Origin: a virus
Direction: 5' to 3' (one strand)
Length of the DNA stretch: 64,000 bases
Virus record (IMG/VR): IMGVR_UViG_3300030107_004732
Coordinates: 1-64,000 of that record
Positions within the stretch are counted from its first letter, which is position 1; every line of letters begins with the position of its first letter. The notes under the pieces were generated by a model. That model made no database searches. It worked only from the letters and a program-made list of their open reading frames with translations, and was not told where the DNA came from. The translations under genes and the position numbers were made by a program. Positions 8,201-35,471 of the stretch are shown here, piece by piece.

Positions 8201-9250
8201 TTCTACAGGAGATAATATGTGGCTTCTTAAAGGATACCATCCTTCTGTTATTCTATGTGCGCCTTTATCTATAACGTTCGCACTAGCATGTGTTGTAAAA
8301 TCTAAATTTGTATCATTATAAAAATTAATCTTATGTTTAAAATGTATAAAACTTACAGGTCTTCTACAATGACCATAAAGCCATTTCTCGCCTGGTTTAA
8401 GTAAAACTCTAAAATTACCATTATCATAATAAGCATCAACAGCAGGCGTATTAAAATAGTCTGAAGATGTAGTTATATGAGAATTTCCTGTTTGTCTCCA
8501 ATCCCATAAATGCTCAATATCAAAAAGCCATGGATCATCATGAAAACATCCAGGATGGTCATTTCTATCTATTTCTCCGTAAAATCCAGCTCCATATGTA
8601 CCTGCATTATAAAATCCAAACATACCTGCATCATGACTTTTAATAACATATATATTATTAGACGGGCTTGTTTCTGCTGGAGCAAATTCAGATCCTATTA
8701 CTCCAGATGCATCGTATGTAGCTTCTATAGCTAAAAGGGCATAATCTTTTGCAGCATCATTAGTAATATCTAATGAATCTTTTACTTTGAATTGAGTATC
8801 AGAAACTTTTTCTATTCTACAAGAAATATTCATTGCAGATGCAATAGGTCTAACTTTTGTTACTCTTATGCCTGTAGTTAATCCATGGTTAATTGTTTCT
8901 AAACCACTTCCATCAGTTGCAGTAAAACTACTAAGACCAACTCCTTCTACTGTTGTAAAACCACCAGCACTACTAATAAATTTAACTACTAAAAATCTTC
9001 TAAAAGCATATTCTGGTTGAATAGCCCAAGTAGTATGAATCCCCACGGATAAATACTCACTATCATATCCTCCTTCGTTTTCTGATAATCCTGGAGCTGT
9101 TACAAAAGAAGATTGAAGAGAAAGTTCACCAGGATTAATACTTACAAATCCTTGAGAATCTTGACATTCATTATTTTCAAGATCTCTGGGGTTTTTGTTT
9201 TTTACAATCCCCCCAGAAAAATCTTCTATATTTAATGTAGCCTTAGGCAT
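5204..9250 (-). CDS. Tail protein, beta-propeller-like, 1,348 aa (copy 1)
   Basis: A 1,348-aa virion protein whose N-terminus (IEDFSGGIVKNKNPRDL) matches the opening of the 1,112-aa protein at 59263-62601 (LENFSGGLNNNSDPKDL). This 'F-SGG, dP-L, E' opening is common in phage tail/nozzle proteins placed before fibres. Around residues 690-840 there are repeated strand-turn segments (VNKFDILP, LIGFGQKLLVFK, IFWLNERGIYAYS) like beta-propeller blades, also shared with the paralogue. The last ~120 residues (from WSNGSTSTSQSAKW) match a separate 136-aa ORF at 58853-59263, so two genes are fused here. It starts in TAATG overlap with the 59-aa ORF upstream and is followed directly by the fibre. Likely the tail hub or nozzle carrying the fibre; exact position inferred. 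Confidence 0.75.
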   Translation of the reverse strand: MPKATLNIEDFSGGIVKNKNPRDLENNECQDSQGFVSINPGELSLQSSFVTAPGLSENEGGYDSEYLSVGIHTTWAIQPEYAFRRFLVVKFISSAGGFTTVEGVGLSSFTATDGSGLETINHGLTTGIRVTKVRPIASAMNISCRIEKVSDTQFKVKDSLDITNDAAKDYALLAIEATYDASGVIGSEFAPAETSPSNNIYVIKSHDAGMFGFYNAGTYGAGFYGEIDRNDHPGCFHDDPWLFDIEHLWDWRQTGNSHITTSSDYFNTPAVDAYYDNGNFRVLLKPGEKWLYGHCRRPVSFIHFKHKINFYNDTNLDFTTHASANVIDKGAHRITEGWYPLRSHILSPVEYKVESNSGNPEYDADFGNVNEAFTNSSTAPVNSGSYTNRDAAAGFLRTEPTAVTSTDFFGGSRDDKRYMSVYPHRFAVAIGTGNTSNQIPGDWQFKTGDHQKIALGVSYVYDNIEFTRQLESTINPLEAGFHQTSGSGQWTFGVNNSSAQLENWVYADGVDGDDGEVADNTALNLSIVLNRGTPNSLPLDEPQIDDCGIIPDVTSDPYGLIGSWAVGEWRGKSLNSGYSNRLSYNPRIVGINIWFTGDNTGMFDDPYWLATFDFEHNKKAISHDGVEGDGWNREDNAANSAAGSLVGQTISHIKTVPNITYKVKNGYSHKTVTQAWYTTSAIVNRRLYAGNVSYFDFPINKIREVDGEQKITHKPDRILVSPVNKFDILPITNFLDVVTEDGQDIVKLIGFGQKLLVFKHDDLFIVDASGEFEFLENTHKGLGVLNPVMVTQTPEYIFWLNERGIYAYSKEGELLDILKDTLGLETWKKHYCNGAHISFDPEKQQLLIHCANPNGINKANNVLLLQIENGSIFFKTDPAEDSVDYFSNGLVINNKLYATGTVLGQNNEDFEFYQDDTYNQPRKAEGWAQFKLANTDSAGQIGRPGDNLHYLLIRNSSGWVCINTEEITTRGTTWQDKLTASESTVAQFNKKFSVNSNFNVTTTYDPDSEFFTIRWRSRKKGSAYGGTAQDLSSGNGSNFGTSTLAFSTTNNTDGSGIHHGNITNFSNVGTTYGVNFNDATYYFIPRRNSETDKGVSYNIKISLLSRNDDVASQNIYLSATYVTGEHSKYDKNRVGTGFSYGDDCTATDATNAEALTKNIREFLESNPMTDQYGKKVFLDEYFEIGSAISSGLNTYFTLKPLPVAIDNLEEIDIVTDNISISSGKLYTWSNGSTSTSQSAKWVSKDFDFGQPNVRKKVYRGYITYKGTGSVKIYYKVNQEIGWTLATIKDDGDNILDSQTQTFAREEFNFTSGTTNSIYSIAIKLESVNPIYSLVVNDISLVYRVKSIR

Positions 9251-9820: not shown

Positions 9821-10121
9821 CAGACATACCACCTTTTTCCATCATTCTTAAAAATTTGTCTTTTAGACCATTTCCACTTAATCTAGCAATAATTTCTACT
9901 TGTGCCTTAAATATACCGTTTAATTTCTTTTGTTCCATTTGCACTAATTTTTGTTGATCTATTAATTTAATAATAATACCTTCCAACCTCTTGAAATCTT
10001 GGTCTAGTTCGTTCATAAGAGTAGATTGGATGAACCGATTTTGTTTCCAAATAAAAAAGCCGAACGCCATCGCTACCGCCACAGGTATTCCAAATTGTTC
10101 CAATATTGTAAGTATGTCCAT
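9813..10121 (-). CDS. Holin-like protein (BhlA/UviB type)
   Basis: 102 aa with one N-terminal membrane segment (about residues 8-25, FGIPVAVAMAFGFFIW) followed by a charged, coiled-coil-like helix (residues 30-75). This plan matches small BhlA/UviB-type holins. It follows the metallophosphoesterase as ATG/TGA overlap and lies about 1 kb downstream of the lysozyme gene, which supports a lysis role. The second cassette near 63 kb lacks it. Assignment rests on topology and context; another small membrane protein is possible. Confidence 0.5.
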   Translation of the reverse strand: MDILTILEQFGIPVAVAMAFGFFIWKQNRFIQSTLMNELDQDFKRLEGIIIKLIDQQKLVQMEQKKLNGIFKAQVEIIARLSGNGLKDKFLRMMEKGGMSDE

Positions 10122-10906
10122 TACTTTCCTTTTTTGTTACCATCTATCAGTTCCCCCCACAATGATGTTTTCCCGTTAATAATTTGAATAATATGCACAG
10201 TAAATAATCCTCTCGCATAAAAATCAACTATTGCAAATGCATGTGCCCAATTTATTGGTCTTCCACCAAGCCAAGAGTTTGCTTCTTCCTTCATATTTTT
10301 TAAACATCCAATACTCCAAGCAGACTTAGGTCCATCCATGTGAGTGGCAGACATTTGTTGCAAATCATGCCAATGTCCATACATTACATTACATCCAAGT
10401 TTTCTAAGATGATTAGCAGTATGGTATTGACCACCATATTGATGGCCATGATAAAAGTAAAGTTTTCCCATACGAAGTTTTTTGCCCATCGGGTAGTATT
10501 TATAGCCTCGTTCATTAAGCTTGACAGCATTAGGAAATTTATACTGAGGAATATAGGGGTATTTTTCAACTGCAAAATTAAGCCAATTATCATGATTACC
10601 TTCAGTAATATACTTTTCTTTACAATTTGCTTTATCCAAAGACTCGTCAATCTGATCCATCCCTGCGTTAACATCTTTTACATCCTTATCAAAATCATCT
10701 ATTAAATATTCTAATGGTGGAGCTTTTCTTCTTTTAAATCTCCAAGCACTAAATGCGTGCCATTCTCCAACATCACCTATATCTACATAAGCATCAGGTT
10801 TTACTATTTCAATTGTTTTCTTTAAACAATTAATAGCAGGTTGGTCATGTAATGGAAAATGTTTGTCTGGAGTTACAATAACTCTTTTTACAACACCTTT
10901 ATCCAT
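10121..10906 (-). CDS. Calcineurin-like metallophosphoesterase (copy 1)
   Basis: 261 aa with the full metallophosphoesterase motif set: DKH (D14, H16), GDVGE (44-48, a GDxxD variant), GNHD (103-106), GH (154-155) and GHWH (177-180). These residues bind two metal ions and hydrolyse phosphoesters in the calcineurin-like superfamily. The substrate cannot be inferred; nucleic acid ends, cyclic nucleotides and small phosphoesters are all possible. It sits between holin-like genes in the lysis/tail region and has a highly similar paralogue at 63110-63889 with every motif conserved. SD: GAAAGGGGAAGC before the ATG. Confidence 0.85.
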   Translation of the reverse strand: MDKGVVKRVIVTPDKHFPLHDQPAINCLKKTIEIVKPDAYVDIGDVGEWHAFSAWRFKRRKAPPLEYLIDDFDKDVKDVNAGMDQIDESLDKANCKEKYITEGNHDNWLNFAVEKYPYIPQYKFPNAVKLNERGYKYYPMGKKLRMGKLYFYHGHQYGGQYHTANHLRKLGCNVMYGHWHDLQQMSATHMDGPKSAWSIGCLKNMKEEANSWLGGRPINWAHAFAIVDFYARGLFTVHIIQIINGKTSLWGELIDGNKKGK

Positions 10907-17159: not shown

Positions 17160-18038
17160 CTAACCGAACAAGTTATCTACATTACCATCAAGGCCTAATA
17201 TACCATCAAATAATTGATCATCTTTTGATTTATCAGCTGTTCCTTGACTGTTCGAATCGCTAGCAGTTGTAGGGATATTTCTTACATTTTTCATTTGAGT
17301 AAGCATATCCTGTTTAGTAGAATTGGCCACGTTTGTATTTGCTTTATCTTTGTTTAAAAGATAATAGACATCATCAATGGTTAATTTACGAGATTTTGCC
17401 TGTTCTTTAAAACTTGCAAATTCTTCTTCTGTCATCCCATGCTTTTTAACAAATTCAGCTTCCATATTTTTTTGAGCTATTTTAGCTTGCATTTTTTGAG
17501 CATTTTGCTTTTCACGGCTTAAAACACTACCAACTCTTTGCTGAACTATTCCATCTATATGAGCATTCATAACTTTAGCAGAATCCGAATCAGGATTTTC
17601 CATAGCTTCTGTAGCATCATACATAAAATCTTCAGAAAGATTTAGTTGTTCTTTAACGTCTTTAGCAGGTTGACCACCATTTTTAAAATATGATCTAACA
17701 TGGTCTACTAAACCACTGTCGCGTTTCATTGCATCGAGAACAGGTACAAATGGTTTTAAGTCTTTAAGCTGTTCATTCATTTTAATAGCTTCTCTACTTG
17801 AATCCTTATACCTTTTTTTGTATGGATTGTCCTCATTATCCCAGTTCACATTAGAGCCTTGTGATTGTTCGTGGGTTACCATTTCGGAGCCACTTTCACT
17901 TTGGGTTACTTCTGCGTTATTAACTTCCCCTTCTGCCACCATTCCATTAACGGAATTTTCAATTTGGCCAAAGAAATCGTTAGAGTCATCCATGATATTA
18001 TCTACCACTTTTGAGTTACCTTCTACTTCGTTTGACAT
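17160..18038 (-). CDS. Putative scaffolding protein
   Basis: 292 aa between portal and capsid genes, the usual scaffold position. It is acidic at the N-terminus (Asn/Glu/Asp-rich, residues 1-75). The middle is helical and Lys/Gln-rich (about 95-235, SREAIKMNEQLKDLKP), and the C-terminus is short and acidic. This low-complexity helical make-up is typical of scaffolding proteins. SD: AAAGGAGAAAG. Confidence 0.65.
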   Translation of the reverse strand: MSNEVEGNSKVVDNIMDDSNDFFGQIENSVNGMVAEGEVNNAEVTQSESGSEMVTHEQSQGSNVNWDNEDNPYKKRYKDSSREAIKMNEQLKDLKPFVPVLDAMKRDSGLVDHVRSYFKNGGQPAKDVKEQLNLSEDFMYDATEAMENPDSDSAKVMNAHIDGIVQQRVGSVLSREKQNAQKMQAKIAQKNMEAEFVKKHGMTEEEFASFKEQAKSRKLTIDDVYYLLNKDKANTNVANSTKQDMLTQMKNVRNIPTTASDSNSQGTADKSKDDQLFDGILGLDGNVDNLFG

Positions 18039-18073
18039 TCTTTCTCCTTTTCTTAAAAAAAAATTAAAGTAAT

Positions 18074-20419
18074 TTAATCATTACCATCTGTGTTTTGCAA
18101 ATCATTTTTTAAATTATTTATAGCCATTTGTGCCTGAGCATTAGTTTCTGTAATAATTTTTTGAGAATCGGCATCTAATTTTGCTGAATTTTTTTGAACT
18201 TGATTTTTCATTTCAGCTTGCATTAATTTTTGCTCACCCTCTGTTTGCAATAACTCTTTTTCAATTTCAGACTTAACTTCTTCTTTCTTTTTATTAATTT
18301 CAACTGCAGCTTGCATTACTTTATCTTTAATACCAGATTGAACAAGTTGTCTTTCTAAAGTTTCTATAGTTCCACTTAAATCTTTTATTTGTTCTTCTTG
18401 TGAACCTAACTGACTTTGCATTTGAGAATACATTGATTTTCTTTTAGCTATTTGCTCTTTATTCTTAATATCAGTTTCAGCAAGTAAAGCTATATCATCA
18501 ATAATACCTAATTGCATTAATTCTTTTAATTCTGCAACATAAGCCCATCTATTAACAGGCAATGTTGATCCAGCGACTATTCTTACATCAAATTTAGCAG
18601 CAGAATAATCCATAATTTTTCCTACAGCTTCCCCAAAGTCGTTATAAATTGGAATATTTATTTCAACTTTTCTTTCCTCTTGTAAAGCACTTGGTTGCAC
18701 AATCCTGAATACTTTTTGCGCAGTGTAAACACTTTGTGTAAATTGTTTGACTAAAGTTCCTAATTGTTTTAATGCAGGTTCTAAAGAATTTTGCATCCAT
18801 TGTTTAATCCTCCTTGTTCCATATTCATCTAAGGCTAACATGCCTCTATAAGTTTCGTTTGCTGCTCCTGAATCTCCCATCATAGAGCTGTATATACCTG
18901 CTAAGTATTCCATATCATTTTTTGCGCTTTGAACTATTTGAAAAAACGCACTATTTAATGGAGCAGGTTGTACTGGTGTTGGTGGTGTTGAGCCAGGTCT
19001 AATAGGTAACAAAGCTCCAGGAGAGCTAGAATATCTTTCCCAATAATCAGTATCTATACTTCCTTCTTCATGCATCCATCTTAAACTACTTCCTAAAGAA
19101 GCATTATGAACTAATATTTGATGTGATTTATTTATTTCTCTTTGTTTACCTATTAATGGTGATACTGCTGATATTGGAAACGGAGTACCTGTCCATTTAA
19201 AATGAAAAGGAATAATTGGATACTCTGTTATCCCTTCTGGTAACACTTTTGTATATAAAGTTTTATCTCCTACAACACAACATAATTTTATTCTTGTTCC
19301 ATAAAACTGAACATAATCAACTAAAGTTTCTGAAAAGTTTGGATCTTTTTTAATAAGATTAAATTCTTCTTCAGTAATAATAGTATTTTGAACAGTACTT
19401 GCTTTTTCTTGTAATTCAGCCATCATAGATTGAGAAGCTTGTTGAATTTCTTGCTCTATAGCTTTTTGCATATTGGCTATTTCAAGCTCATATCTTTCTG
19501 GAATCATTTTACCTTCTTGAACAGCTATTTGCATTTGTTGTTGTTGTTCTAAAAATTGAACTTGTTTTTCTGCTTGCAGTTGCTTCATTGCTTCTTCAAC
19601 TTGCATTTTTAATTGATCAAGAACTTGAGGTTCTAACTTTTGTCTATAAAAAGCATTAATATAAGAAACTTTTATTTTTTCATAATGTTCCATTAGTTCT
19701 ATTAAATCATCATGTTCTCCATCTAAAGTAACAGACTCATTAGAATCAATATCTTTATAAGAAAAATCTTTTCTATCAGAACCTGTAGACTTTTCGCTAT
19801 AATCAAAATCTTGATCATCTATACTAGAAGCCTTTTTAATTTTTGATTTATGTTCAGGAAATAATGAATACAAATGTTCTTTTGGTAGAATCTTTCTTAC
19901 AACTATATAATTAGCATCTCTAAACAACATATCTCTAGATTTTGGATCTACAAACACATCAAATGGTTCTGGGTTTTTAATAATAACTTCACCCATACCA
20001 TTATCAGCGTCTTTATCTACATTAACAAGTAAATAACCTATAGATTTAGTAACAGCATCATTTATTGCATTAGCATATAAAGTTGAGCCATCAGATTGGT
20101 CCCAAATATAATCAGCCATATCAGAAAATACTGAAGCAACATCTACATCAGACCCTTCTGCACCAACTGCTTGCCATCTAGGTTTACTAGAAGTTGCATA
20201 AAAGTTTAACATTTCTACAACAGGCATAATTCTGTTGATAGTAAAAGTAGGCATACCTTGCTCTTCTAATGCAATTCTTTCATCTTCAGTTAATTGATTA
20301 TCATGAGCAAAATCATAACCCTTTTGATTTACATATTCCCATTGAATCCTTGAAGAACTATTTGCTAAATCAAAAATATCTTTTATACGTTGTGCATTTT
20401 TATCTATTTTCTTTGCCAT
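18074..20419 (-). CDS. Portal protein (P22-type)
   Basis: 781 aa, the large size of podoviral P22-like portals. The N-terminal segment (YDFAHDNQLTEDERIAL) and the following 'FTINRIMPVVEMLNFY' and 'KNPEPFDVFVDPKSRD' segments match the conserved pattern of this family. A long Gln/Glu-rich coiled coil occupies about residues 270-350 and another the last ~110 residues, as expected for the barrel region. Located downstream of the terminase and upstream of scaffold and capsid. The start overlaps the stop of a short interrupted ORF (TAATGG). Confidence 0.85.
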   Translation of the reverse strand: MAKKIDKNAQRIKDIFDLANSSSRIQWEYVNQKGYDFAHDNQLTEDERIALEEQGMPTFTINRIMPVVEMLNFYATSSKPRWQAVGAEGSDVDVASVFSDMADYIWDQSDGSTLYANAINDAVTKSIGYLLVNVDKDADNGMGEVIIKNPEPFDVFVDPKSRDMLFRDANYIVVRKILPKEHLYSLFPEHKSKIKKASSIDDQDFDYSEKSTGSDRKDFSYKDIDSNESVTLDGEHDDLIELMEHYEKIKVSYINAFYRQKLEPQVLDQLKMQVEEAMKQLQAEKQVQFLEQQQQMQIAVQEGKMIPERYELEIANMQKAIEQEIQQASQSMMAELQEKASTVQNTIITEEEFNLIKKDPNFSETLVDYVQFYGTRIKLCCVVGDKTLYTKVLPEGITEYPIIPFHFKWTGTPFPISAVSPLIGKQREINKSHQILVHNASLGSSLRWMHEEGSIDTDYWERYSSSPGALLPIRPGSTPPTPVQPAPLNSAFFQIVQSAKNDMEYLAGIYSSMMGDSGAANETYRGMLALDEYGTRRIKQWMQNSLEPALKQLGTLVKQFTQSVYTAQKVFRIVQPSALQEERKVEINIPIYNDFGEAVGKIMDYSAAKFDVRIVAGSTLPVNRWAYVAELKELMQLGIIDDIALLAETDIKNKEQIAKRKSMYSQMQSQLGSQEEQIKDLSGTIETLERQLVQSGIKDKVMQAAVEINKKKEEVKSEIEKELLQTEGEQKLMQAEMKNQVQKNSAKLDADSQKIITETNAQAQMAINNLKNDLQNTDGND

Positions 20420-27875: not shown

Positions 27876-27941
27876 CTAAAACAGGCTTTCTTTGTTGAGG
27901 ACAATAGTAATGATACTAAGCAAATAAACAAAGGAGGTGTT

Positions 27942-27977
27942 ATGAATTATATTCGTGATAGTAGTAGTGTGGGATAA
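27942..27977 (+). CDS. Possible 11-aa leader peptide
   Basis: A near-perfect ribosome site (AAAGGAGGTGTT) precedes an ATG whose frame runs 11 codons (MNYIRDSSSVG) to TAA. Its last codons lie in the 5' arm of a hairpin (GTAGTGT...ACAC...CTAC, ~27961-27991). Such an arrangement resembles leader peptides that control downstream RNA folding or translation. It could also be a ribosome-binding decoy. Confidence 0.35.
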   Translation: MNYIRDSSSVG

Positions 27978-28579
27978 CACTCATGCTACTGCTTGATCAA
28001 AAAATTATTAAACTTATCCTATACCAATGTTAACTTGCCCTTGGCTCATACCCAAGAAGGCGAGAGTCCTGAGATAACAACAGGTAAGGTATAGGAGCGC
28101 ATTGCACGCATTGCAATACAACAATGAATAATGAAATAAAATTGAGAGTTATGAAACAGGCCTGATCACCTGTGGATTAACGATGTGAAACCTGTAGAGC
28201 ATTCTGGTGAGGAGTGTGCAGGTAGACTGTTAGGTGTGACCGCTATAATATCAAGTGATGTTGTAGAACTAGTAGAGGCTAGAACAGTCGTAGAGCCAAT
28301 ATAAATGATAAGGGAATCCTTATCCAGTGGGTGTATATGTCTAGAGATAGACACTGAATACGGTAAGCAGGTCTTACATGAAAACAGATACACTATTTAG
28401 TCTATGGATTAACTACCCATATGTGACGACCTATCGGGGTAACCAGCCCTCATGGAGATAGGAGTAGCATACTTGATCACTCTTGTAGACGAAACACTGC
28501 CAATTAAAAATGGTATCTTGCGGGTGTCCCAAATCCCGCCACAACTCAAATACTTTTAACCTACTAATCAAGGAGAATT
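27978..28579 (+). ncRNA. Large structured non-coding region (~600 nt)
   Basis: No convincing ORF on either strand, and a base composition visibly less AT-rich than the neighbours. Many perfect stems: CCTATACC/GGTATAGG closing a 78-nt element (28018-28095); GATAAGG-GAAT-CCTTATC (28307-28324); TGTCTA-GAGA-TAGACA with a GNRA-type loop (28338-28353); CCTATC/GATAGG (28430-28462); GCGGG/CCCGC (28520-28539). This looks like one large or several small structured RNAs inside the early transcript. No T-arm (GTTCRANY) is present, so it is not a tRNA cluster. Function unknown. Confidence 0.6.
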
Positions 28580-29032
28580 ATGAATAAATTTACATGTGAT
28601 ATATGTGGAGACACATCTTATGGTCATTCACATAATACTCAACCATTATTAAATGGACAATGTTGTGCACTATGTAATATGATATTTGTTACAGCATCTA
28701 GAATTACTGGTGTTGATTCATTAGATGAACAAATAGAATATATGATGAAAATGAAAGATGAAGATGAACTACCTGATATGTTCTTAGAAGTTTTAGATAG
28801 AGTTCGTGACTATCAAGGTAAAATATTTCTAGAAGAAACAGCCAAAATATCTATAGAAGATCTAAACGCTAAATTAGATGAATTGGAAGAAGAGAAAGAA
28901 ATAGAAAAGTTAAATATGTCAAAAGAAGAGATAATATATAACTTAAAAAAAGCATTTGACAATGCAATTAAAATAGAAGCTTATGAAGCTGCTGCATTTA
29001 TTAAGAAAAGAATTGAGTCTCTAAAGAGTTGA
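28580..29032 (+). CDS. Zinc-finger phage protein with UVR-like C-terminus
   Basis: 150 aa. The N-terminus has two Cys pairs (CDICG at 5-9 and CCALCN at 28-33) with 'SHNTQPLLNGQCC' between them, a pattern common in small phage proteins and likely a treble-clef-type zinc site. The middle is a coiled coil (about 75-115). The last ~30 residues (NLKKAFDNAIKIEAYEAAAF) resemble the UVR/UvrB helical-hairpin motif used for protein interaction. SD: AAGGAGAATT. Function unknown; regulatory or DNA-associated roles are plausible. Confidence 0.65.
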   Translation: MNKFTCDICGDTSYGHSHNTQPLLNGQCCALCNMIFVTASRITGVDSLDEQIEYMMKMKDEDELPDMFLEVLDRVRDYQGKIFLEETAKISIEDLNAKLDELEEEKEIEKLNMSKEEIIYNLKKAFDNAIKIEAYEAAAFIKKRIESLKS

Positions 29033-29050
29033 TTGGTAGGAGAACAACTG

Positions 29051-29158
29051 ATCTGTAGTTGGCTTGACAAGTGCCCTATACTAAACTGCAGATATAGCAC
29101 CCATCATCGATAGGAATACCTAAGGCAAATTGCACTGCATGAGCTGTTGGTGGGTGCT
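29051..29158 (+). ncRNA. Structured intergenic RNA element, two stems
   Basis: In the 200-nt gap between genes, ATCTGTAGTT (29051-29060) pairs with AACTGCAGAT (29084-29093) with one wobble. Then AGCACCCATCA (29096-29106) pairs over 11 bp with TGGTGGGTGCT (29148-29158), also with one wobble. The wobbles are compatible with RNA-level selection. The gap holds no gene. Confidence 0.55.
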
Positions 29159-29232
29159 GAGATTTGTATATCATTTACTATAAATATAATGAAAATAAGA
29201 AAAAACATAGAAAAAATATGGAGGATATTAAA

Positions 29233-29733
29233 ATGGGCTTTGATTTAAGTGGTGTTAATCCACAAATAAATAAACCTGAATCTGAATATAAATACTTTAA
29301 AGAAGATAGTGAATTATGGATGTCAGACGACAAAAAAGAACGTGAAAAATACTTTAAAGAAATGGATGATTACCATGAAAATAATCCAGGAGTATATTTT
29401 CGCAATAATGTTTGGTGGTGGAGACCATTATGGTCTTATGTTATCAATTTATGTGACGATATACTTACAGATGATGATATGGAACATGGATCATATAATA
29501 ATGGACATGAAATATCTCAAGAAAAAGCATATAAAATAGGTTTAAGACTATTAAAAGACATAGATTCAGGTAAAACTGCTGTTTATGAAGAATTACACAC
29601 AAAAAATAATGCAGAATTAAGTCAATCTAGCGATAAAGATGCGGCATTTATGTCTAATTATCCATTTGATGTAGATAATGTAAGAAATTTTGCTAATTTC
29701 TGCTTACAATCAGGAGGTTTTACAATATGTTAA
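29233..29733 (+). CDS. Conserved phage protein (NNVWWWRPLW motif), 166 aa
   Basis: 166 aa from the ATG at 29233, preceded by GGAGG. A longer frame from a TTG at 29164 has no ribosome site and is rejected. It contains 'YFRNNVWWWRPLWSYV' (about 55-70) and 'NNGHEISQEKA' (about 92-102). I know this pattern from a widespread hypothetical phage family starting MGFDLxG. Molecular function unknown. Confidence 0.75.
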   Translation: MGFDLSGVNPQINKPESEYKYFKEDSELWMSDDKKEREKYFKEMDDYHENNPGVYFRNNVWWWRPLWSYVINLCDDILTDDDMEHGSYNNGHEISQEKAYKIGLRLLKDIDSGKTAVYEELHTKNNAELSQSSDKDAAFMSNYPFDVDNVRNFANFCLQSGGFTIC

Positions 29734-29876
29734 CATTTTACCCAGTAAAAACTGAAGAAGAACTAATAACTGAGCTTCATCATGTAAGAAATGATATTGC
29801 TTTATTAAAAATAAGGCAAAATAAGATAATTGATGAACTTGTAACATTAAAAGGAGATAAAGATGCCAAAAACTAA
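29727..29876 (+). CDS. Small coiled-coil protein, 49 aa
   Basis: ATG at 29727 overlapping the previous stop, with AGGAGG upstream. 49 aa, mostly one charged helix (TEEELITELHHVRNDIALLK). It overlaps the next gene by 14 nt. Function unknown. Confidence 0.55.
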   Translation: MLTFYPVKTEEELITELHHVRNDIALLKIRQNKIIDELVTLKGDKDAKN

Positions 29877-30039
29877 GAAAACTAGAGATCCAATAGATGA
29901 AATTGATAATATATTAAAAACTATAGATAAATTAGAAGGTAATATGGATATTTTAAACACAAATATGCAACATGCTATTGATTTACAGGAAGAAATAGGA
30001 AGAGATTTAGACAAGATTAAAAAAAGGATGGGATTATGA
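29863..30039 (+). CDS. Small coiled-coil protein, 58 aa
   Basis: ATG at 29863 with AAAAGGAG upstream. 58 aa with a basic start (MPKTKKTRDP) followed by heptad-like helix (IDNILKTIDKLEGNMDIL). Ends as ATGA overlap with the next ORF. Function unknown. Confidence 0.55.
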   Translation: MPKTKKTRDPIDEIDNILKTIDKLEGNMDILNTNMQHAIDLQEEIGRDLDKIKKRMGL

Positions 30040-30125
30040 TAAATTGGATGAATCTTTGTGTATATGGTGGAATATTTCTACTTGGAATGATAATGTGGTA
30101 TTATATAGTGAAATGGTGGTTCTAA
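30036..30125 (+). CDS. Small membrane protein, 29 aa
   Basis: 29 aa starting in ATGA overlap and ending in TAATG overlap, so coupled at both ends. The product is a single hydrophobic segment rich in Trp/Tyr/Met (CVYGGIFLLGMIMWYYIV). Candidate membrane micropeptide; function unknown. Confidence 0.45.
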   Translation: MINWMNLCVYGGIFLLGMIMWYYIVKWWF

Positions 30126-30319
30126 TGGATATATTTGAACTAGAAAAAAACAATGTAGTACTTAAAAGAACTGTAAGATACCTTGATGGTGAAATAAAAG
30201 AAATAGTAGAAAAACAAATATTAAGTAACCTAACCAAGATTGATAATTTCTTTGATGATTTAGAAAGAGAATATCAGTCTATTAACTCTTATGAAGAAGG
30301 AGGCCAAAATGGCAACTAA
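30125..30319 (+). CDS. Hypothetical helical protein, 64 aa
   Basis: 64 aa from the ATG at 30125 (TAATG overlap). A longer frame from 30044 would overlap the membrane ORF and lacks a ribosome site. Charged helical product (FELEKNNVVLKRTVRYLDGE). It overlaps the ubiquitin-like gene by 11 nt and holds that gene's AGGAGG site within its last codons, so the two are tightly coupled. Confidence 0.55.
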   Translation: MDIFELEKNNVVLKRTVRYLDGEIKEIVEKQILSNLTKIDNFFDDLEREYQSINSYEEGGQNGN

Positions 30320-30527
30320 AACAATAAAATTTCTACAAGGTGGCGGCTTTGTAGAAAGACAAACTAACGCTGATACTGTTGAGCAATTAAGAAATGAATT
30401 TCCAGATGATATTAGTAATAATGCATCTGTTGCTGTTAATGGTGTTTCTGTAACTAACACTCATGCTATTGCTGAAGGTGATATTGTTGCAGCTGTTAAT
30501 AATAATAAGTCTGGCGGTGATCAGTAA
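30309..30527 (+). CDS. Ubiquitin-like (beta-grasp, MoaD/ThiS-type) protein
   Basis: 72 aa from the ATG at 30309, chosen because GAAGGAGGCC lies directly upstream; an in-frame ATG at 30291 lacks this. The layout fits a beta-grasp fold: hairpin (KTIKFLQGGGFVERQT), helix (TVEQLRNEF), strand 'SVAVNGVSV' (40-48) and final strand 'EGDIVAAVNN' (56-65). The end is KSGG followed by two residues (DQ). A Gly-Gly near the C-terminus with a short tail is typical of Ubl precursors that need a protease to expose GG. An E1-like enzyme and JAMM protease lie in the same operon, supporting a conjugation or sulfur-transfer role. Confidence 0.7.
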   Translation: MATKTIKFLQGGGFVERQTNADTVEQLRNEFPDDISNNASVAVNGVSVTNTHAIAEGDIVAAVNNNKSGGDQ

Positions 30528-30536
30528 TTATTAACT

Positions 30537-30603
30537 TAAGGTGGTCGCTGGTCTCGAGACTAAAAGATAGATAGGCACTATTTAAAGCGCTATCTCCACC
30601 TTA
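30537..30603 (+). ncRNA. Stem-closed RNA element C
   Basis: TAAGGTGG (30537-30544) pairs with CCACCTTA (30596-30603), a perfect 8-bp closing stem for a 67-nt element. Inside are GTC-TCGA-GAC and AGATAG/CTATCT stems. Lies in the 183-nt gap after the ubiquitin-like gene, just before a second such element. Confidence 0.5.
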
Positions 30604-30608
30604 TAACT

Positions 30609-30693
30609 TATAGGGCTGTAGTGACAGGCGAGTCAATAACTGTAGCCAGCAATTGGCGTTATGTGAGACTAACGAGGGTCAATCAGCCCTATA
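30609..30693 (+). ncRNA. Stem-closed RNA element D
   Basis: TATAGGGCTG (30609-30618) pairs perfectly over 10 bp with CAGCCCTATA (30684-30693). Inside is a nested series AGTC/GACT, ATAAC/GTTAT and GCCA/TGGC ending in a 5-nt loop. It ends about 10 nt before the GGAGGG of the next gene, so it could control access to that start. A GTG frame from 30621 crosses it but has no ribosome site. Confidence 0.6.
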
Positions 30694-30710
30694 TTAAACT
30701 TGGAGGGTTT

Positions 30711-32078
30711 ATGACAGATTATAGAGATTATGATTGCATTGTAGATGGCTCAATAGAACAATGCTTAGAAGAAATAGAAGTAGGAGATCTTGAAGAACAC
30801 ATTTATTATGGTCCTCAAGCAGACATAATGGAGAAATTACAAAGATTTAATGCTAGACACAGAGCCGATTTAGAAATTACTAAAACATTTAAATGGAAAC
30901 GTGGTTCTTATGAAAGAGTTGCTGAACTTATGATGAGAGGTCTTGGATTTAGAAGAAGGCCAAGTGGTATGTATAATTATTTACATAGAGAAGATTGGTT
31001 TAGAACTCATACCTGGGATTCAATTAAAAGCCAATTACAAGATATGGATTCTGACTTGTACAGGTTAAGAAATAATGGTGAAGTATGGTTAGATGATCCT
31101 TCTGTTCTTGTAGAAAGAAAAAATTTGTATTCTAATTATTTGATAGAAAAAGTAGAACTTGCTGATGAAATAATAGAAAATGTAGATATAATGGCTGAAA
31201 TGTATCATCAGTTATTTGTTCATCCAACATCACGCTCAAGTAGAAGATATATGCTAGTAACAACACTACGTATTACTCCAGATGTAATGAAAGTTTATGT
31301 AACTGAAGGTAGAAATAGTAATGAACCTGCTAAACATATAGAAAATATAGCTTGTGATACAGATGTATACTTAAATCTTATTACATATCCATTGCAAGTT
31401 ATGACAAGACATTCTAATTATGATAGGCCTTCAATTGATGTAAGTATTCTTGGTCAAGTTGAACAACCAAGCGATAAAGGATATTTATCATTTCCTTATA
31501 TTTCTGGTAGCAGAAACTACAGAGGCGGTTATTTTGGAAATAGTGTTTGCTTTGGTGACCAATCAACAGATGTGCATAATTCATTATATAGATATGATTT
31601 ACCATCTTTTGTATTGCAATGTATACCTTGGGCTACATCATATACTAATATGACACAACCACATAGCAACATTAAAATGATGTATCATGGTGAACCTAGC
31701 AGATTATCTGATGAATACAGATCAATATTTGGTACAAATACATCTAATATGTGTACTTACATACCAGATGGTGATAATGATTATTGTGATGTAAATGAAT
31801 GTGCTCTTAGACATAGTTGTACATTATATAAAGATGCACATCCTCAACCAGTAACACCAGAACAAGCTGAACAAATGACCTTACAATGGGCTACTAGAAT
31901 GGGTGGCGTTAATCACGCTGCTCCAACTATAATACACACAACTGATAATTCAGGCAATCCTGTAACTGTAACTAGAGATAGAACGTCAATGGAACAAGCT
32001 GCAGATGCTCAAGAACCACCAATACAAGGTGATCGTGAACAGTGGCCTGATGAATCACCACAAGGTGACGAAATGTAA
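30711..32078 (+). CDS. Candidate E2-like protein with Cys cluster, 455 aa
   Basis: 455 aa from the ATG at 30711 (TTGGAGGG upstream). It lies between the ubiquitin-like gene and the JAMM/E1-like genes. The segment around residues 262-310 has 'FPYISG', then 'FGNSVCFGDQ' with C280, then 'DLPSFVLQCIPWATSYT'. This is reminiscent of the HPHI...G-x-C-LG...helix layout of E2/UBC-fold proteins. Further on is a four-Cys cluster (C348, C359, C364, C370) that could bind zinc. The C-terminal ~70 residues are acidic and low-complexity. The E2 assignment is inference from operon context and a weak motif; an unrelated phage protein remains possible. Confidence 0.45.
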   Translation: MTDYRDYDCIVDGSIEQCLEEIEVGDLEEHIYYGPQADIMEKLQRFNARHRADLEITKTFKWKRGSYERVAELMMRGLGFRRRPSGMYNYLHREDWFRTHTWDSIKSQLQDMDSDLYRLRNNGEVWLDDPSVLVERKNLYSNYLIEKVELADEIIENVDIMAEMYHQLFVHPTSRSSRRYMLVTTLRITPDVMKVYVTEGRNSNEPAKHIENIACDTDVYLNLITYPLQVMTRHSNYDRPSIDVSILGQVEQPSDKGYLSFPYISGSRNYRGGYFGNSVCFGDQSTDVHNSLYRYDLPSFVLQCIPWATSYTNMTQPHSNIKMMYHGEPSRLSDEYRSIFGTNTSNMCTYIPDGDNDYCDVNECALRHSCTLYKDAHPQPVTPEQAEQMTLQWATRMGGVNHAAPTIIHTTDNSGNPVTVTRDRTSMEQAADAQEPPIQGDREQWPDESPQGDEM

Positions 32079-32094
32079 CTTAAAAGGAGGAATA

Positions 32095-32238
32095 ATGGAC
32101 GCTAGAACTTCATACTTTAGTAATGAAATTAAAGACTTACAGTTTAAGTTTAAATCATTGCGTAATGATCATGAAACACTTAAAAAAGAATATAAAATAC
32201 TACAAAAACAAGTAAAAAAGCTCGAGGAGGGTAAATAA
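32095..32238 (+). CDS. Small coiled-coil protein, 47 aa
   Basis: ATG at 32095 with AAAAGGAGG upstream, TAATGG overlap with the JAMM gene. 47 aa, nearly all a charged coiled coil (FKSLRNDHETLKKEYKILQK). It sits between the E2 candidate and the protease and may be an accessory subunit of the module. Confidence 0.6.
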   Translation: MDARTSYFSNEIKDLQFKFKSLRNDHETLKKEYKILQKQVKKLEEGK

Positions 32239-33209
32239 TGGAAATATTAATACATAAAGAATCTTGGGATAAGATTATAAATTATGCTAAAGCTGCTTAT
32301 GTCACAGAAAAAGCTGAAATAGGTGGTATGGCTGTAGTAACACAAGATAAAGATGGTGACTGGACTATTGAAAATCCAGTTATATTACCACAAGAAATAG
32401 CAGGGACTACGTGTGACCTAGATAAAGAAGAATTGGCTACGTATTATACTCAAATGGCTATGAAATACAAAGACCAGAAGTTTAGATTTTGTTGGTGGCA
32501 CAGTCATCACACAATGAACGCATTCTGGAGTGGTACAGATTTATCTAGCATTGATGAGTATGGTGAAGGTGAATCAGACGTTTCATTTGCACTTGTTGTT
32601 AATCTAAAAGAAGAATACAAATGTAGAATATCTGTATGGAAACCAGTAGAAATACATCAAGATGTAGAAGTTAAAATATTAGATGATACACCTGAAATAG
32701 AAATACCACTTGATATAGTTACAGAAGTTAAAGCTAAATGTAGAAAACGTACTTATGTAAGTTCTTATAAATCTGGTGGATCTGTATTAGAATCGCCAAA
32801 TAAAAAGCAGTTAGTAATTGGTCAAAATGGATTTGAAAGTAGTTATAATTGGGCTAAATATAGTTGGCTTGATGATGATTTAGAAAAAATTGTTACACCA
32901 CAAGAACAAACTAACTTTGAAGCTAAATGGGAATATGCGACTAATAAAATAACAGAGTTTATTAGACAATTTAATACAGGAGCTTGGAATATGCACAAAT
33001 ATAAATCTGCTGTAACTCATACAAATAAAATATTAGAACCATATGGGATTCAAATAGAAACATTAAACAAGCGTGAGTTAACAGAGTTTATTGAAATGGA
33101 TTCTGAACCATATGAACTGTTAACAGCTGATGATAAATATCATGATATAGCAGAAAGTTTAATAGATTGCGCATCTTATAATCAATCTTATGGAGGGTAT
33201 GGAATATGA
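32238..33209 (+). CDS. JAMM/JAB-domain metalloprotease, 323 aa
   Basis: The N-terminal ~155 residues form a JAB/MPN+ domain: glutamate E27 in AEIGGM, then HSHHTMNAFWSGTD in which H88, H90, S98 and D101 satisfy H-x-H-x7-S-x2-D exactly. This zinc site hydrolyses (iso)peptide bonds after Gly-Gly in deubiquitinase-like enzymes. The C-terminal ~150 residues are helical and unrecognised, and might bind the partner proteins. It overlaps the E1-like gene by 4 nt. Likely job: trimming the Ubl precursor (GG-DQ) and/or removing it from targets. Confidence 0.88.
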   Translation: MEILIHKESWDKIINYAKAAYVTEKAEIGGMAVVTQDKDGDWTIENPVILPQEIAGTTCDLDKEELATYYTQMAMKYKDQKFRFCWWHSHHTMNAFWSGTDLSSIDEYGEGESDVSFALVVNLKEEYKCRISVWKPVEIHQDVEVKILDDTPEIEIPLDIVTEVKAKCRKRTYVSSYKSGGSVLESPNKKQLVIGQNGFESSYNWAKYSWLDDDLEKIVTPQEQTNFEAKWEYATNKITEFIRQFNTGAWNMHKYKSAVTHTNKILEPYGIQIETLNKRELTEFIEMDSEPYELLTADDKYHDIAESLIDCASYNQSYGGYGI

Positions 33210-33859
33210 TAAATACTAGAAGCCAAGATATTGCAGATATATCAGGCATTAAGTTTCACATTGTAGGTTGCGGGGCTATTGGAAGCTCCGTAGCCACACA
33301 ATTAGTAAGACTTGGTGGCAATAATTTTGTTTTATATGATTTTGATAAAGTTGAAATACCTAATGTAGGTGTAAGTCAATATAATGAACAAGATGTAGGG
33401 CTATCTAAAGTAGGTGCTCTAACAAATCATATGAAAAAAATTAATGTAATGATTGAAATAGAGGGAATTGTTGATAAATTTAAATATTATCATGGAAATA
33501 AAGATGATATATTAGTATTAGGTTTAGATAGTATGTCTGCTCGTATGGAAATAGTTAAATTGTTAGCAAAATGCCCTTATAAACCATCATTTGTAATAGA
33601 TGGTCGTATGGGTGCAGAACAATATCAACAGTATATATATGATAATATTACTGTTAAACAATATGAAAAAGATTGGTATTCTGATGAAGATTCTGATCCA
33701 GAACCATGCACTCGTAAAGCTACATCTTACTGTAGTAATATGAGTGGAAGTTTTATATCTAATTCTATTAAGAACATAGTTATGAAACAGCCTTACTTTA
33801 AGGAAATAATTTTCAACTTTTCAACATTAATACTTGATAAAAAGAAATTAGTTTCTTAA
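33206..33859 (+). CDS. E1/ThiF-like adenylyltransferase, 217 aa
   Basis: Rossmann-fold E1/ThiF/MoeB superfamily: nucleotide-binding GCGAIG (21-26), acidic D45 after the second strand, 'DKVEIPNVGVSQ' (47-58), K68 in LSKVGA, and the GLD motif (106-108). Near the end 'EPCTRKATSYCSNMSGS' (166-182) gives Cys168 and Cys176 as candidate thioester or active-site cysteines. It is shorter than canonical MoeB, like phage and plasmid ThiF proteins. It would adenylate the C-terminal glycine of the adjacent Ubl. It overlaps the JAMM gene as ATGA and ends at a hairpin-bearing gap. Confidence 0.85.
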   Translation: MINTRSQDIADISGIKFHIVGCGAIGSSVATQLVRLGGNNFVLYDFDKVEIPNVGVSQYNEQDVGLSKVGALTNHMKKINVMIEIEGIVDKFKYYHGNKDDILVLGLDSMSARMEIVKLLAKCPYKPSFVIDGRMGAEQYQQYIYDNITVKQYEKDWYSDEDSDPEPCTRKATSYCSNMSGSFISNSIKNIVMKQPYFKEIIFNFSTLILDKKKLVS

Positions 33860-33867
33860 ATTCTAAA

Positions 33868-33939
33868 CCCTTTATATCAAAGGGATCTTATGTATAGCAC
33901 ACTGAACAGGGTAGTATAACCCCTATTTCTGCCCTGTTC
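33868..33939 (+). terminator. Paired hairpins after E1 gene, weak terminator or RNA element
   Basis: CCCTTT/AAAGGG with a 5-nt loop (33868-33884), then GAACAGGG/CCCTGTTC (33904-33939). The second is followed by TCAAAATAAAA, not a U-run. They close the ubiquitin-like module and precede the ERF gene. Partial termination or processing is likely rather than strong termination. Confidence 0.4.
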
Positions 33940-33962
33940 TCAAAATAAAAAGGAGGAAGCTC

Positions 33963-34466
33963 GTGACAAATATCGATGTTTCAAAACAAACTGGTATTGC
34001 TAAAAGTGTATTAGAAGCAAAAGCCAAAAACGAATCAAATGAGAAATCTTTTGATGAATCTCATGATAGAAGACATGATGAATGGAAATCACCTCAATTA
34101 GATCAATTAGCAGCAGCATTAGCTAAAGCTCAATCTGAAATGGAAGGTGCTAAAAAAGAGAGTACAAATCCATTCTTTAAGTCTAGTTATGCAGACTTAC
34201 ATGCAGTAATTAAATCTTCATTTCCATACTTATCTAAAAATGGACTATCTGTTAGTCAAGGTAATGAAGTAATTAAAGGCGCTGTATGTGTAACAACAAC
34301 ATTAATGCACGCATCAGGTCAATGGATGAGAAGTAAAATTAAACTTCCATTAGCTAAAGTAGACGCACAAGGCGTTGGAGCTGCTGTAACTTATGGTAGA
34401 AGATATGGTTTATCTGCTATGGTAGGTATAGCTCAATACGATGATGATGCACAATCAATTTCTTAA
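33963..34466 (+). CDS. erf: ERF-family single-strand annealing protein
   Basis: 167 aa from a GTG start with AAAGGAGGAAG upstream. Residues ~60-160 carry the ERF signature: 'KKESTNPFFKSSYADLHAV', 'LSKNGLSVSQ', 'LMHASGQWM' and 'GAAVTYGRRYGLSAMVGI'. ERF proteins anneal complementary single strands for phage recombination. The C-terminus is short, lacking a long basic tail. It is followed by an SSB-like gene, the usual partner. Confidence 0.9.
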   Translation: MTNIDVSKQTGIAKSVLEAKAKNESNEKSFDESHDRRHDEWKSPQLDQLAAALAKAQSEMEGAKKESTNPFFKSSYADLHAVIKSSFPYLSKNGLSVSQGNEVIKGAVCVTTTLMHASGQWMRSKIKLPLAKVDAQGVGAAVTYGRRYGLSAMVGIAQYDDDAQSIS

Positions 34467-34479
34467 TTAAGGAGAACAT

Positions 34480-35016
34480 ATGAGAACAATGACAATAAAG
34501 TCAGGTAGTAGTAATAATCAATATTCTACTGGGTGGCATGAATTAATAGTTTCAAAAGCTAAATATGGTGATTGGAATGGAACAAAATGTATAGACATTT
34601 ACTTTGATGAATATCCAGAAAACTTTAACATGAGAGTTTATGCTAAAACAGGAACTGATGGTGAAGAATTTGCTATTGGTCAAATATATAGATTTGCTAA
34701 TGCTGGAATAAGTAGCGCATTAGAAGGCCCTGATGGCACTAAAGTTGTTAAAATGGATGATAGTGAAGAAGCTTTAATAGGTAAAAAGATGAATGTTTAC
34801 TTTTATAAAGATGGTAAATATTCTAGAATGTTATCTAAAACTGCTCCTACAGAATTTACAAATGCTGTAGAATCATTCACAACAGATGATGTTAGCTATT
34901 GGAAAGGTAAAGCTATAGATTTCTATAAGAAATATGTAGAACCTAAACTTAAAACAAGCTCAGAAGAATCCGTTTCTTCTTCCGAGACCTCCGAGAGTGA
35001 CGATATACCCTTTTAA
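34480..35016 (+). CDS. Single-stranded DNA-binding-like protein
   Basis: 178 aa. The beta-rich N-terminal ~110 residues are OB-fold-like (TGWHELIVSKAKYGDWNG). A Ser/Glu-rich linker (about 155-172) leads to the terminal SDDIPF, the classic acidic SSB tip that recruits replication proteins. Placed between ERF annealase and primase-helicase. The core does not look like bacterial SSB, so it is a phage-type analogue. SD: AAGGAGAACAT. Confidence 0.7.
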   Translation: MRTMTIKSGSSNNQYSTGWHELIVSKAKYGDWNGTKCIDIYFDEYPENFNMRVYAKTGTDGEEFAIGQIYRFANAGISSALEGPDGTKVVKMDDSEEALIGKKMNVYFYKDGKYSRMLSKTAPTEFTNAVESFTTDDVSYWKGKAIDFYKKYVEPKLKTSSEESVSSSETSESDDIPF

Positions 35017-35036
35017 GTGAGTAGGTAATCGTTAAT

Positions 35037-35120
35037 TATAGGGAGGCAACAACTGGTCCTGTAAGTCGTAAATGACCTACTGAGGAAATTTCCGCAAAGG
35101 AATATGTGAGTCTCCCTATA
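35037..35120 (+). ncRNA. Stem-closed RNA element F
   Basis: TATAGGGAG (35037-35045) pairs perfectly over 9 bp with CTCCCTATA (35112-35120), closing an 84-nt element. Inside are GGTC/GACC and a TTCC-GCAAA-GGAA hairpin. It is tRNA-sized but has no T-arm or anticodon arm. In the 275-nt gap after the SSB-like gene. Confidence 0.55.
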
Positions 35121-35126
35121 TAAAGA

Positions 35127-35275
35127 TTTGGTAACAGTATAAAAACTCCCTAGATAGTACTCAGTTTACTATCTGACATTTCAGAAATCTAAATTCCATT
35201 AGATTCCGATTATTTGTTTATGAGTATATTTCATACGTGACTATTGCCTGGCTGGAAGTTGCAGGAGTTACCAAA
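35127..35275 (+). ncRNA. Stem-closed RNA element G
   Basis: TTTGGTAAC (35127-35135) pairs perfectly over 9 bp with GTTACCAAA (35267-35275), 149 nt end to end. Inside are AGATAGTA/TACTATCT (8 bp) and AATCTAA/TTAGATT (7 bp) hairpins. It directly follows element F and ends 6 nt before the AAAGGAG of the next gene. Confidence 0.55.
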
Positions 35276-35291
35276 AAATTAAAGGAGAATT

Positions 35292-35471
35292 ATGAGAGCG
35301 ACAGAATTTATGCATTTTATGAATAGAACAGATATAGGTTTAGGACAAAATCCTAAAGAAAGAGACTATACACACTATACCCCTAGAATGCTTGCAAAAA
35401 GAGCTAGATATGAGTATCAAAAGATGCTTAGAGAACAAAAAAAATTAAAGAAATCGGAGGAAAAAAAATGA
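35292..35471 (+). CDS. Basic hypothetical protein, 59 aa
   Basis: ATG at 35292 with AAAGGAGAATT upstream. 59 aa, strongly basic C-terminal half (RMLAKRARYEYQKMLREQKK). Possibly nucleic acid binding. Overlaps the next membrane ORF as ATGA. Confidence 0.55.
   Translation: MRATEFMHFMNRTDIGLGQNPKERDYTHYTPRMLAKRARYEYQKMLREQKKLKKSEEKK

Follow-up and report, generated by a model that had tools for sequence, protein, structure and literature searches.

The stretch of viral DNA analysed here, referred to as the window, comprises 64,000 nucleotides (nt) and is part of an 85,245-base virus record in IMG/VR (IMGVR_UViG_3300030107_004732). Within its rightward early operon, gaps between genes carry elements that are closed by a stem, and these elements are the subject of this work. 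The operon encodes a ubiquitin-like protein with a weak Pfam match to ThiS, a conserved protein without a Pfam match that we take to be E2-like, a JAB-type protease (weak matches), a ThiF/E1-like protein, an ERF recombinase, a presumably SSB-like protein without a Pfam or PHROG match, and a DnaB-type helicase. The set of ubiquitin-like, E2-like, JAB and ThiF/E1 genes (30310-33859) is kept in relatives.

Relatives were gathered by protein searches of IMG/VR, which led to 11 loci, to the best 80 of 187 relatives and to 28 loci (fetched loci carry the prefix L); genes were called by simple open reading frame (ORF) rules. In INPHARED, the helicase matched one record at 24% identity, and the terminase matched 479 records, all below 60% identity, with 12 at 24-26% among the matches listed. 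Judged by these helicase and terminase matches, the database appears to hold no near isolate of the window phage. The early region had no match there, and of two element copies tried, one gave none and the other four rows at E 8, which is the level of chance.

Stem-Closed Elements in the Window

A preliminary description of the window had listed six stem-closed segments in at least five gaps. All six stems exist where it placed them, although they are spread over four gaps (Table 1). Five of the six segments fold better than nearly all of their dinucleotide shuffles, the exception being 35127-35275. When compared with 50 letter shuffles of its whole gap, the stem at 30537 is ordinary (p 0.28), and in the gap 27877-28579 the best stem is 27960-27993 (p 0.12), not 28018-28095. 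Two further hairpins, at 29051-29093 and 33904-33939, had been overlooked; the place of the former is taken in relatives by stems such as GATCTATAG/CTATAGATC, as read by eye.

Table 1. Features of the early operon (positions in the window), with the fold z score and the number of 200 dinucleotide shuffles folding as well
Position	Strand	Feature	Closing stem	z; shuffles	Further evidence
28018-28095	+	Stem-closed element	CCTATACC/GGTATAGG, 8 bp	-3.15; 1/200	
28139-28560	+	Conserved noncoding region of ~420 nt after 28018-28095			Homologs in L108, L296, L297; mean column identity 82%
29051-29093	+	Further hairpin	ATCTGTAGTT/AACTGCAGAT	-3.04; 2/200	
29096-29158 (feature bounds 29095-29159)	+	Stem-closed element	TAGCACCCATCA/TGGTGGGTGCTG, 11 bp	-3.03; 1/200	
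30537-30603	+	Stem-closed element	TAAGGTGG/CCACCTTA, 8 bp	-2.36; 3/200	
30609-30693	+	Scaffold-III element between ubiquitin-like and E2-like genes	10 bp	-3.58; 0/200	
30631-30670	+	Mini scaffold-I core nested as scaffold-III cassette			Covariance model E 0.37 only
33904-33939	+	Intercistronic hairpin between E1-like and ERF genes	GAACAGGGTAG/CTGCCCTGTTC	-5.82; 0/200	
35037-35120	+	Scaffold-I element between SSB-like gene and gene 35292-35471: P1, conserved internal loop, P2, insert	P1, 10-11 bp	-3.87; 0/200	
35037-35046	+	P1 5' arm, purine-rich UAUAGGGAGG	Pairs with 35111-35120		All ten P1 pairs changed on both sides in 43 aligned relatives
35047-35060	+	Conserved 5' core CAACAACTG and P2 5' arm GTCCT			All columns but one invariant in alignment A1
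35061-35097	+	Exchangeable insert: RTAAGYC module and hairpin cassette			Identical insert on another P1 in L095
35098-35110	+	Conserved 3' core: P2 3' arm AGGA and ATATGTGAG			Columns invariant or nearly so
35111-35120	+	P1 3' arm, pyrimidine-rich	Pairs with 35037-35046		
35127-35275	+	Second element in the same gap as 35037-35120	TTTGGTAAC/GTTACCAAA, 8 bp	-1.60; 13/200	

Scaffold I

The element at 35037-35120, scaffold I, lies in the window behind the SSB-like gene. In this gap, relatives carry a stem such as TATAGGGAG/CTCCCTATA, followed in most close relatives by a constant core, CAAYAACTGGTCCT...AGGAATATGTGAG, between whose halves an insert varies from phage to phage. The closing stem P1 thus surrounds a conserved internal loop (CAAYAACUG/AUAUGUGAG in RNA letters), a second stem P2 and the insert. 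A scan of IMG/VR with the 22-mer CAAYAACTGGTCCTRTAAGYCC returned at least 119 stretches. The requirement that CAAYAACTG and (A/T)TATGTGAG both occur within 260 nt gave a set of 121 distinct copies, almost all of them on IMG/VR contigs. Left out of this set were L227, L001-L003, the truncated L189, and copies whose 3' strand is altered (e.g., L052, L188, L159, L206, L181). Because copies were recruited by pattern, those with an intact core are favoured: the half at 35047-35060 belonged to the pattern searched for, and part of its conservation is due to this selection, while the half at 35098-35110 was not in the 22-mer pattern, TATGTGAG being required only when copies were collected.

Pairs 1-7 of P1 are formed in 120-121 of the 121 copies, and pair 1 occurs as six pair types. 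In alignment A1, which holds 43 of 47 listed references and no copies from the window (row L115 stems from the window's own record, outside the window), 97.7% of cells are paired, and the covariation score of 0.366, compared with 0.113 after shuffling, is reached in 0 of 500 shuffles. Most core columns are invariant and therefore neither support nor refute their pairs. Across P1 pairs 1-8 (968 cells), 912 cells are Watson-Crick, 46 G.U, 1 A.C and 9 other; wobble is tolerated on the sense strand only, and the excess of G.U over A.C marks the sense RNA. The scaffold-I element works as a sense RNA whose fold is conserved. A covariance model built without the window sequence finds 35037-35120 at E 3.4e-20 (80.7 bits); a covariance-model search of the loci covered 75 of them. 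The 5' arm of P1 is 82% purine.

The preliminary description had noted a repetition of architecture without sequence identity. The second half of this holds only in part: the core CAAYAACTG...TATGTGAG is common to 35037-35120 and 30609-30693, and the elements form sequence families across phages.

In L213, L159, L206 and L290, a variant of scaffold I has a longer recurring stretch (TTATATAAAACAGGTAGAGCTGA and similar) in place of UGUGAG, which seems to be another module level. In L158 (5291-5454), a tRNA-Cys gene directly follows a scaffold-I element. The insert of L131 (locus ~2805) is one long cassette containing GGGAAUGGUGCAAAUCCAUC, which we take to be reminiscent of a cobalamin-box sequence; that locus has no Rfam match. 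A 22-mer scan of a bacterial and archaeal genome collection gave two matches. One, L227 (Actinomycetota), was rejected as a GC-rich chance match in which the 3' core is absent. The other, L228, is a contig of a Flavobacteriales metagenome-assembled genome with an element. It also encodes relatives of ERF (at 50% identity) and, more distantly, of the helicase (at 24%); because it carries these two it looks like phage DNA and does not point clearly to a host.

Placement Between Genes

Copies of scaffold I are tied to gene ends. The element begins within 25 nt of the upstream stop codon in 98 of the 121 copies, and in 77 it ends 11-40 nt before a start codon of the same direction that is led by a Shine-Dalgarno (SD) sequence; as a control, any antisense start within 80 nt was found in 14. 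Upstream of the copies stand 30 gene families among 114 peptides. The elements are stems between co-directed genes, near the stop codon and the SD sequence, and in this they are intercistronic hairpins. Among 461 gaps (non-redundant, co-directed, 45-420 nt, in the loci examined), 152 (33%) hold strong end-to-end stems, compared with 2.6% of shuffles; among gaps without the core, the count is 98 of 381, and these 98 stems are 66% purine. Among the gap contents listed are many other frames and some plain terminator-like hairpins.

Three gaps can be matched across relatives, namely those after the SSB-like gene, between the ubiquitin-like and E2-like genes, and between the E1-like and ERF genes; in all three a stem is usual and its contents differ. 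The tests used letter shuffles rather than dinucleotide shuffles. After the SSB-like gene, a strong stem is present in 63 of 70 non-redundant gaps, 56 of which beat all 30 shuffles, and its contents range from loops of 5-6 nt (L114, L032, L048) to nested modules of ~150 nt. In the ubiquitin-like gap, seven of nine have a strong stem and five beat all 30 shuffles; rows L004, L015 and L023 begin inside the ubiquitin-like gene (partial hit). Between the E1-like and ERF genes, a stem at shuffle p of 0.04 or less occurs in 18 of 26 listed gaps, including 33904-33939 of the window, with near-duplicates such as L021/L022 counted separately. A common architecture with a common role, as suggested in the preliminary description, is well supported: the closing stem usually persists at the matched gaps. 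What this role may be is weighed below.

Scaffold III and Nesting

A second frame, scaffold III (GUAGUGACAGGCGAG...CUAACGAGGGUCAAUC), occupies the ubiquitin-like/E2-like gap in the window and its close relatives, with differing cassettes; other relatives have quite different frames there. Its pattern was found in 67 IMG/VR stretches; with a wider gap allowed, the loci examined contain 63 distinct copies with changing P1 and cassettes. P1 is readable at a fixed register in 52 of the 63, with its pairs changing, and of 312 P1 cells, 295 are Watson-Crick, 11 G.U and 6 A.C. The conserved 3' strand of scaffold III contains no ATG or GTG.

In the window, the cassette of scaffold III appears to be a small scaffold-I core in its own right (30631-30670), which we accept because in L028 a core and inner hairpin almost identical to it sit directly inside P1. 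Nesting and cassette exchange had not been visible to the preliminary description because both need relatives.

Exchange of Cassettes

The inserts of scaffold I are swapped between phages. In 124 of 6,786 copy pairs, the identity of the upstream coding flanks reaches 75% or more; the inserts are less than 60% identical in 113 of these and at least 80% identical in 5, the pairs coming mostly from few sites and not being independent. Of 6,420 pairs with flanks less than 60% identical, 24 share inserts at 85% identity or more, up to 43 nt fully identical. For the window itself, L101 has an upstream flank 82% identical and an insert unrelated to 35061-35097. The 104 standard copies fall into 74 insert clusters, 21 of which have at least two copies.

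Cassettes are also shared between frames. A comparison of scaffold-I with scaffold-III inserts gave 28 matches (at least one being the window's nested copy against itself), and three sets of shuffled inserts gave 0, 0 and 0. The 27-nt cassette GCCTCAYGGGCAAGTCCCRTGGACGAR was found in 16 IMG/VR stretches and in no fewer than eight surroundings. Three of these are scaffold I, scaffold III and a form of scaffold I whose 3' strand differs; the others number at least five. When 131 cassettes were searched, 301 of 800 hits lay outside scaffold-I and scaffold-III contexts. A spacer-like origin from genes was rejected, the best 60 of the 301 looking noncoding; five of these 60 (L131, L243) were flagged as open-frame and by eye resemble other stem-closed elements.

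Eight equal-length cassette pairs, one per cluster, differ by 37 substitutions. In this small sample of predicted folds, there are 7 compensatory pairs compared with 1.04 expected (maximum 4 in 300), while broken pairs number 6 where 11.2 would be expected, which indicates that the pairing constraint holds while cassettes drift. These comparisons show the anatomy of the elements (their pairing, RNA level, position and modularity) and the exchange of their contents.

Counterparts of the Other Elements

Five of the six segments have counterparts in other phages. It had been recognised from the outset that stems absent from relatives, or no better than in shuffled sequence, would speak against a shared function, and for these five elements conservation contradicts that possibility. 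The sixth, 28018-28095, is the least certain because it had no match at E 0.01 in any fetched locus; it is also absent from the corresponding place in L108.

Matches to 35127-35275 occur in 18 loci, at full length and 84-93% identity in L015, L020, L096, L099 and L112, where paired changes were seen by eye and left uncounted; its 3' part recurs elsewhere. The 30537-30603 element matches four loci, with a compensated P1 in L293, another P1 in L284 and L229, and a copy nested inside a scaffold-III-like frame in L218. Fifteen loci match 29095-29159 at E 0.01, several of them across only 26-29 nt; in the distinct surroundings shown, P1 is changed yet paired (e.g., ACACCC/GGGTGT) and the interior differs.

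Relation to Known RNAs and Elements

The absence of tRNA hallmarks, already remarked upon in the preliminary description, is borne out: ARAGORN found no tRNA in the window and the Rfam tRNA model no match. In the window and 28 loci, Rfam 15 at gathering score gave the tRNA-Cys of L158 as its sole match, and no ribozyme family matched the elements. For 27900-35400 of the window, lowering the threshold to E 5 brought three weak hits to unrelated families, none of which fits. The proposed mimicry of host RNA thus found no backing, and tRNA, a known Rfam RNA and host-RNA mimics were rejected as identities of the elements in the window. Three tRNAs were called in 60 element-bearing loci, and another 10 loci gave two, both of L297, all at other places; a tRNA array was rejected, as elements are rarely near tRNAs. 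A Pfam scan of nine early proteins showed no reverse transcriptase or integrase domain, although no search aimed at integrases was made.

Several known systems resemble the elements in part. Intercistronic hairpins that serve processing or stabilisation in bacterial and phage operons are likewise stems between co-transcribed cistrons near the stop codon and the SD sequence; to our knowledge they are plain, without conserved internal-loop modules, nesting or cassette exchange. Integron attC sites, which are defined by conserved sequence boxes in the basal stem, share an imperfect hairpin with a variable tip, and retron msr-msd RNA shares closure by inverted repeats and a variable hairpin. In contrast to both, the closing stem here is free in sequence and constrained as RNA; the conserved boxes of attC are accordingly missing from the basal stem. 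GOLLD and ROOL RNAs occur in phages. They are described as large structured noncoding RNAs (PMC12286853), and a parallel is possible only for 28139-28560; the elements here are much shorter, have swappable contents and no Rfam match. The manA and wcaG motifs of marine phages are structured RNAs that were also recognised by comparison in phages and metagenomes, as potential 5' untranslated region motifs of genes of sugar and nucleotide metabolism, chaperones, exopolysaccharide and photosynthesis or high light (PMC2864571, PMC9964418). The accessible portions of those papers mention no cassettes, and no Rfam model matches the elements here. Polymorphic toxins also have a constant frame and a variable tip obtained by recombination with cassettes (PMC3482391); these are protein genes in bacteria, whereas the exchanged unit here is a folded RNA of tens of nucleotides.

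No description of such elements was found in the open-access literature, most subscription papers and all preprints lying outside the search, so a prior description is possible. We regard the modular, nested and exchanged RNA architecture as new; the closing hairpin alone would be ordinary.

Possible Functions

The most likely reading, inferred from sequence comparison and with a probability of about 0.42, is that the elements act in cis as an intercistronic RNA insulator composed of exchangeable modules. The elements would be transcribed as part of the early operon. From just past the stop codon to just before the next ribosome-binding site (RBS) reaches a strong stem whose 5' arm is rich in purines, so that the gap would fold on itself. 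The loop of this stem carries interchangeable modules. In each of them, stems free in sequence flank an internal loop that has conserved bases on its two strands; the modules are thus stacked or nested, with a hairpin cassette at the tip. Both modules and cassettes travel between phages and frames, probably by recombination over short identical cores (~22 and 18 bp), perhaps with the help of the phage's own ERF annealing protein. Such an insulator would punctuate the polycistronic mRNA, shield it from nucleases and prevent mispairing of neighbouring cistrons. The frame would be needed and the folded content would matter little, so contents would turn over fast and differ within one genome. Two considerations lead to this reading: the common denominator of the site is the closing stem, with interchangeable contents, which favours a general role in cis, and recombination over an identical core on both sides would result in fast turnover of contents. 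The suggestion of the preliminary description that the elements are RNA processing sites is possible and close to the insulator.

Several findings weigh against an insulator. The two strands of about nine invariant internal-loop bases in more than 100 copies would not be needed by a mere insulator and suggest a specific partner. The near-total swap of inserts between close relatives could reflect selection for change, not indifference. No clear stem was seen in 7 of the 70 gaps after the SSB-like gene and in 8 of the 26 between the E1-like and ERF genes. Scaffold III has A.C cells as well as G.U, all of the former at one pair, and its RNA signature is therefore weaker. A T-rich tail follows 11 of the 121 scaffold-I copies at a threshold of at least 6 T in 8, and 38 at one of at least 5, counted without a control. 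Lastly, in ten distinct copies behind the helicase gene (L137, L141, L147, L182, L190, L193, L090, L212, L052, L264), the 3' strand of the element, AAGGAATAT-GTG (ATG in L052), is itself the SD sequence and start of the next gene, an arrangement that resembles regulation. There the next gene is Zn-ribbon-like (MSPHCINCKYL) and in frame with the element's own start, and the 3' arm of P1 is coding. An interrupted gene or intron-like element was rejected for these copies, as the element lies between the helicase stop codon and the start that it supplies.

Two readings take the swapping of inserts as adaptive. The elements could be a combinatorial RNA system, in which a shared library of autonomous, nested modules is traded between phages and the tips are selected for change, an RNA antigenic variation against factors of the host or of rival phages; we regard this as unlikely, though a serious contender. 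Likewise unlikely are trans-acting RNAs in an arms race, which would be excised or remain in the mRNA and act on a factor of the host or of a rival phage (a nuclease, an RNA-sensing defence, an sRNA or superinfection control), with the tip cassette swapped as targets or sensors change. Inserts that differ despite upstream coding flanks of 94-98% identity (L190/L193, L147/L212, L153/L167) recall antigenic variation, and such replacement among near-identical phages is accounted for equally well by an arms race and by an insulator. The invariant core columns and the presence of elements in many phage contigs also fit an arms race. However, the positions are tied to gene ends rather than being those of free-standing genes, a plain hairpin with a 5-6 nt loop may occupy the corresponding site in relatives, and a target has to be postulated; the best 60 of the 301 outside cassette hits look noncoding.

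The elements might also be cis-acting translation switches, in which P1 or P2 competes with the RBS, and folding, a ligand or a protein sets translation of the next gene. The helicase-downstream copies, the purine-rich 5' arm of P1 and an SD-like AGGA hidden in the P2 pairing UCCU/AGGA agree with this, and the 3' arm of P1 can pair with the downstream SD region better than shuffled letters do (mean -5.6 vs -4.3 kcal/mol in 87 copies). Yet P1 outweighs the SD pairing in 86 of the 87 copies, one frame stands behind 30 gene families, and scaffold III lacks a start codon in its conserved 3' strand. Outside the helicase context, moreover, a stop usually ends the GTG frame early (the median over the 121 copies is 7 codons, and 20 reach at least 40), so a general leader peptide found no support; a switch appears quite improbable.

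Less probable still are selfish or neutral passengers, for which the loop of an intercistronic hairpin would be a site where insertion does no harm; folded modules would spread into it by recombination and stay because they leave their surroundings undisturbed. Nesting in the manner of a Russian doll, the occurrence of cassettes in many surroundings, and an identical stem that encloses 6 nt of loop in L032 and a module of 31 nt in L033 are what passengers would look like, but compensatory change keeps cassettes and stems without decay.

Hairpins acting at the DNA level (integron-like recombination sites, replication or packaging signals) or as transcription terminators are highly improbable. 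Modules do recombine, some distant relatives (L062, L064, L068) have a hairpin and then a T-run after the SSB-like gene, and the T-rich tails and the A.C cells of scaffold III point the same way; a minority of copies possibly act as terminators. Most tails are not T-rich, however, and a terminator scan, which accepts loops of 3-8 nt only and cannot score long-loop stems, marks none of the six elements. The stem is free in sequence, unlike a protein-recognised site, and the ratio of G.U to A.C in scaffold I disfavours a DNA-level site, scaffold III being less clear. Chance stems in AT-rich gaps, to which the weak showing against shuffles of 35127-35275 (by energy) and of 30537 and 28018 (by stem score) might point, are refuted by the conservation and exchange data for all but 28018-28095 and deserve almost no credence.

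Further Features of the Record

The conserved region 28139-28560 has no Rfam match and is a candidate large structured RNA. In L297, the contig of a close relative, a tRNA-Met (CAT) and a tRNA called tRNA-Stop (TTA), with an apparent hairpin inserted in the D loop, lie at 8237-8309 and 8648-8736, just before the large noncoding region. Upstream, an 11-codon ORF (27942-27977, MNYIRDSSSVG) with a strong SD sequence (AAAGGAGG) overlaps the long hairpin 27960-27993; its counterpart in L108 was read by eye as MNYIRDSSSVR. This ORF and hairpin look like a leader peptide or attenuator.

The 85-kb record contains two very similar phosphoesterase-like genes (10121-10906 and 63110-63889 of the window), and L115 contains, at 17663-20000 and near the end of the record, a second set of genes for the 29233-29733 protein family, ERF, SSB and helicase. 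Such duplicated gene sets may mean that two related phage genomes have been joined, or an assembly artefact.

Significance

The shuffling of protein modules is well known. Here, structured RNA modules, mostly of a few tens of nucleotides, are apparently shuffled and nested in many phages, while their folds are held by compensatory change. They represent a class of structured RNA that annotation based on Rfam overlooks. The occurrence of different RNA tips at one site in relatives with nearly identical genes raises a question that can be tested. If this picture is true, the elements would provide a naturally occurring set of RNA parts that fold independently, and a phage trait that evolves very fast.

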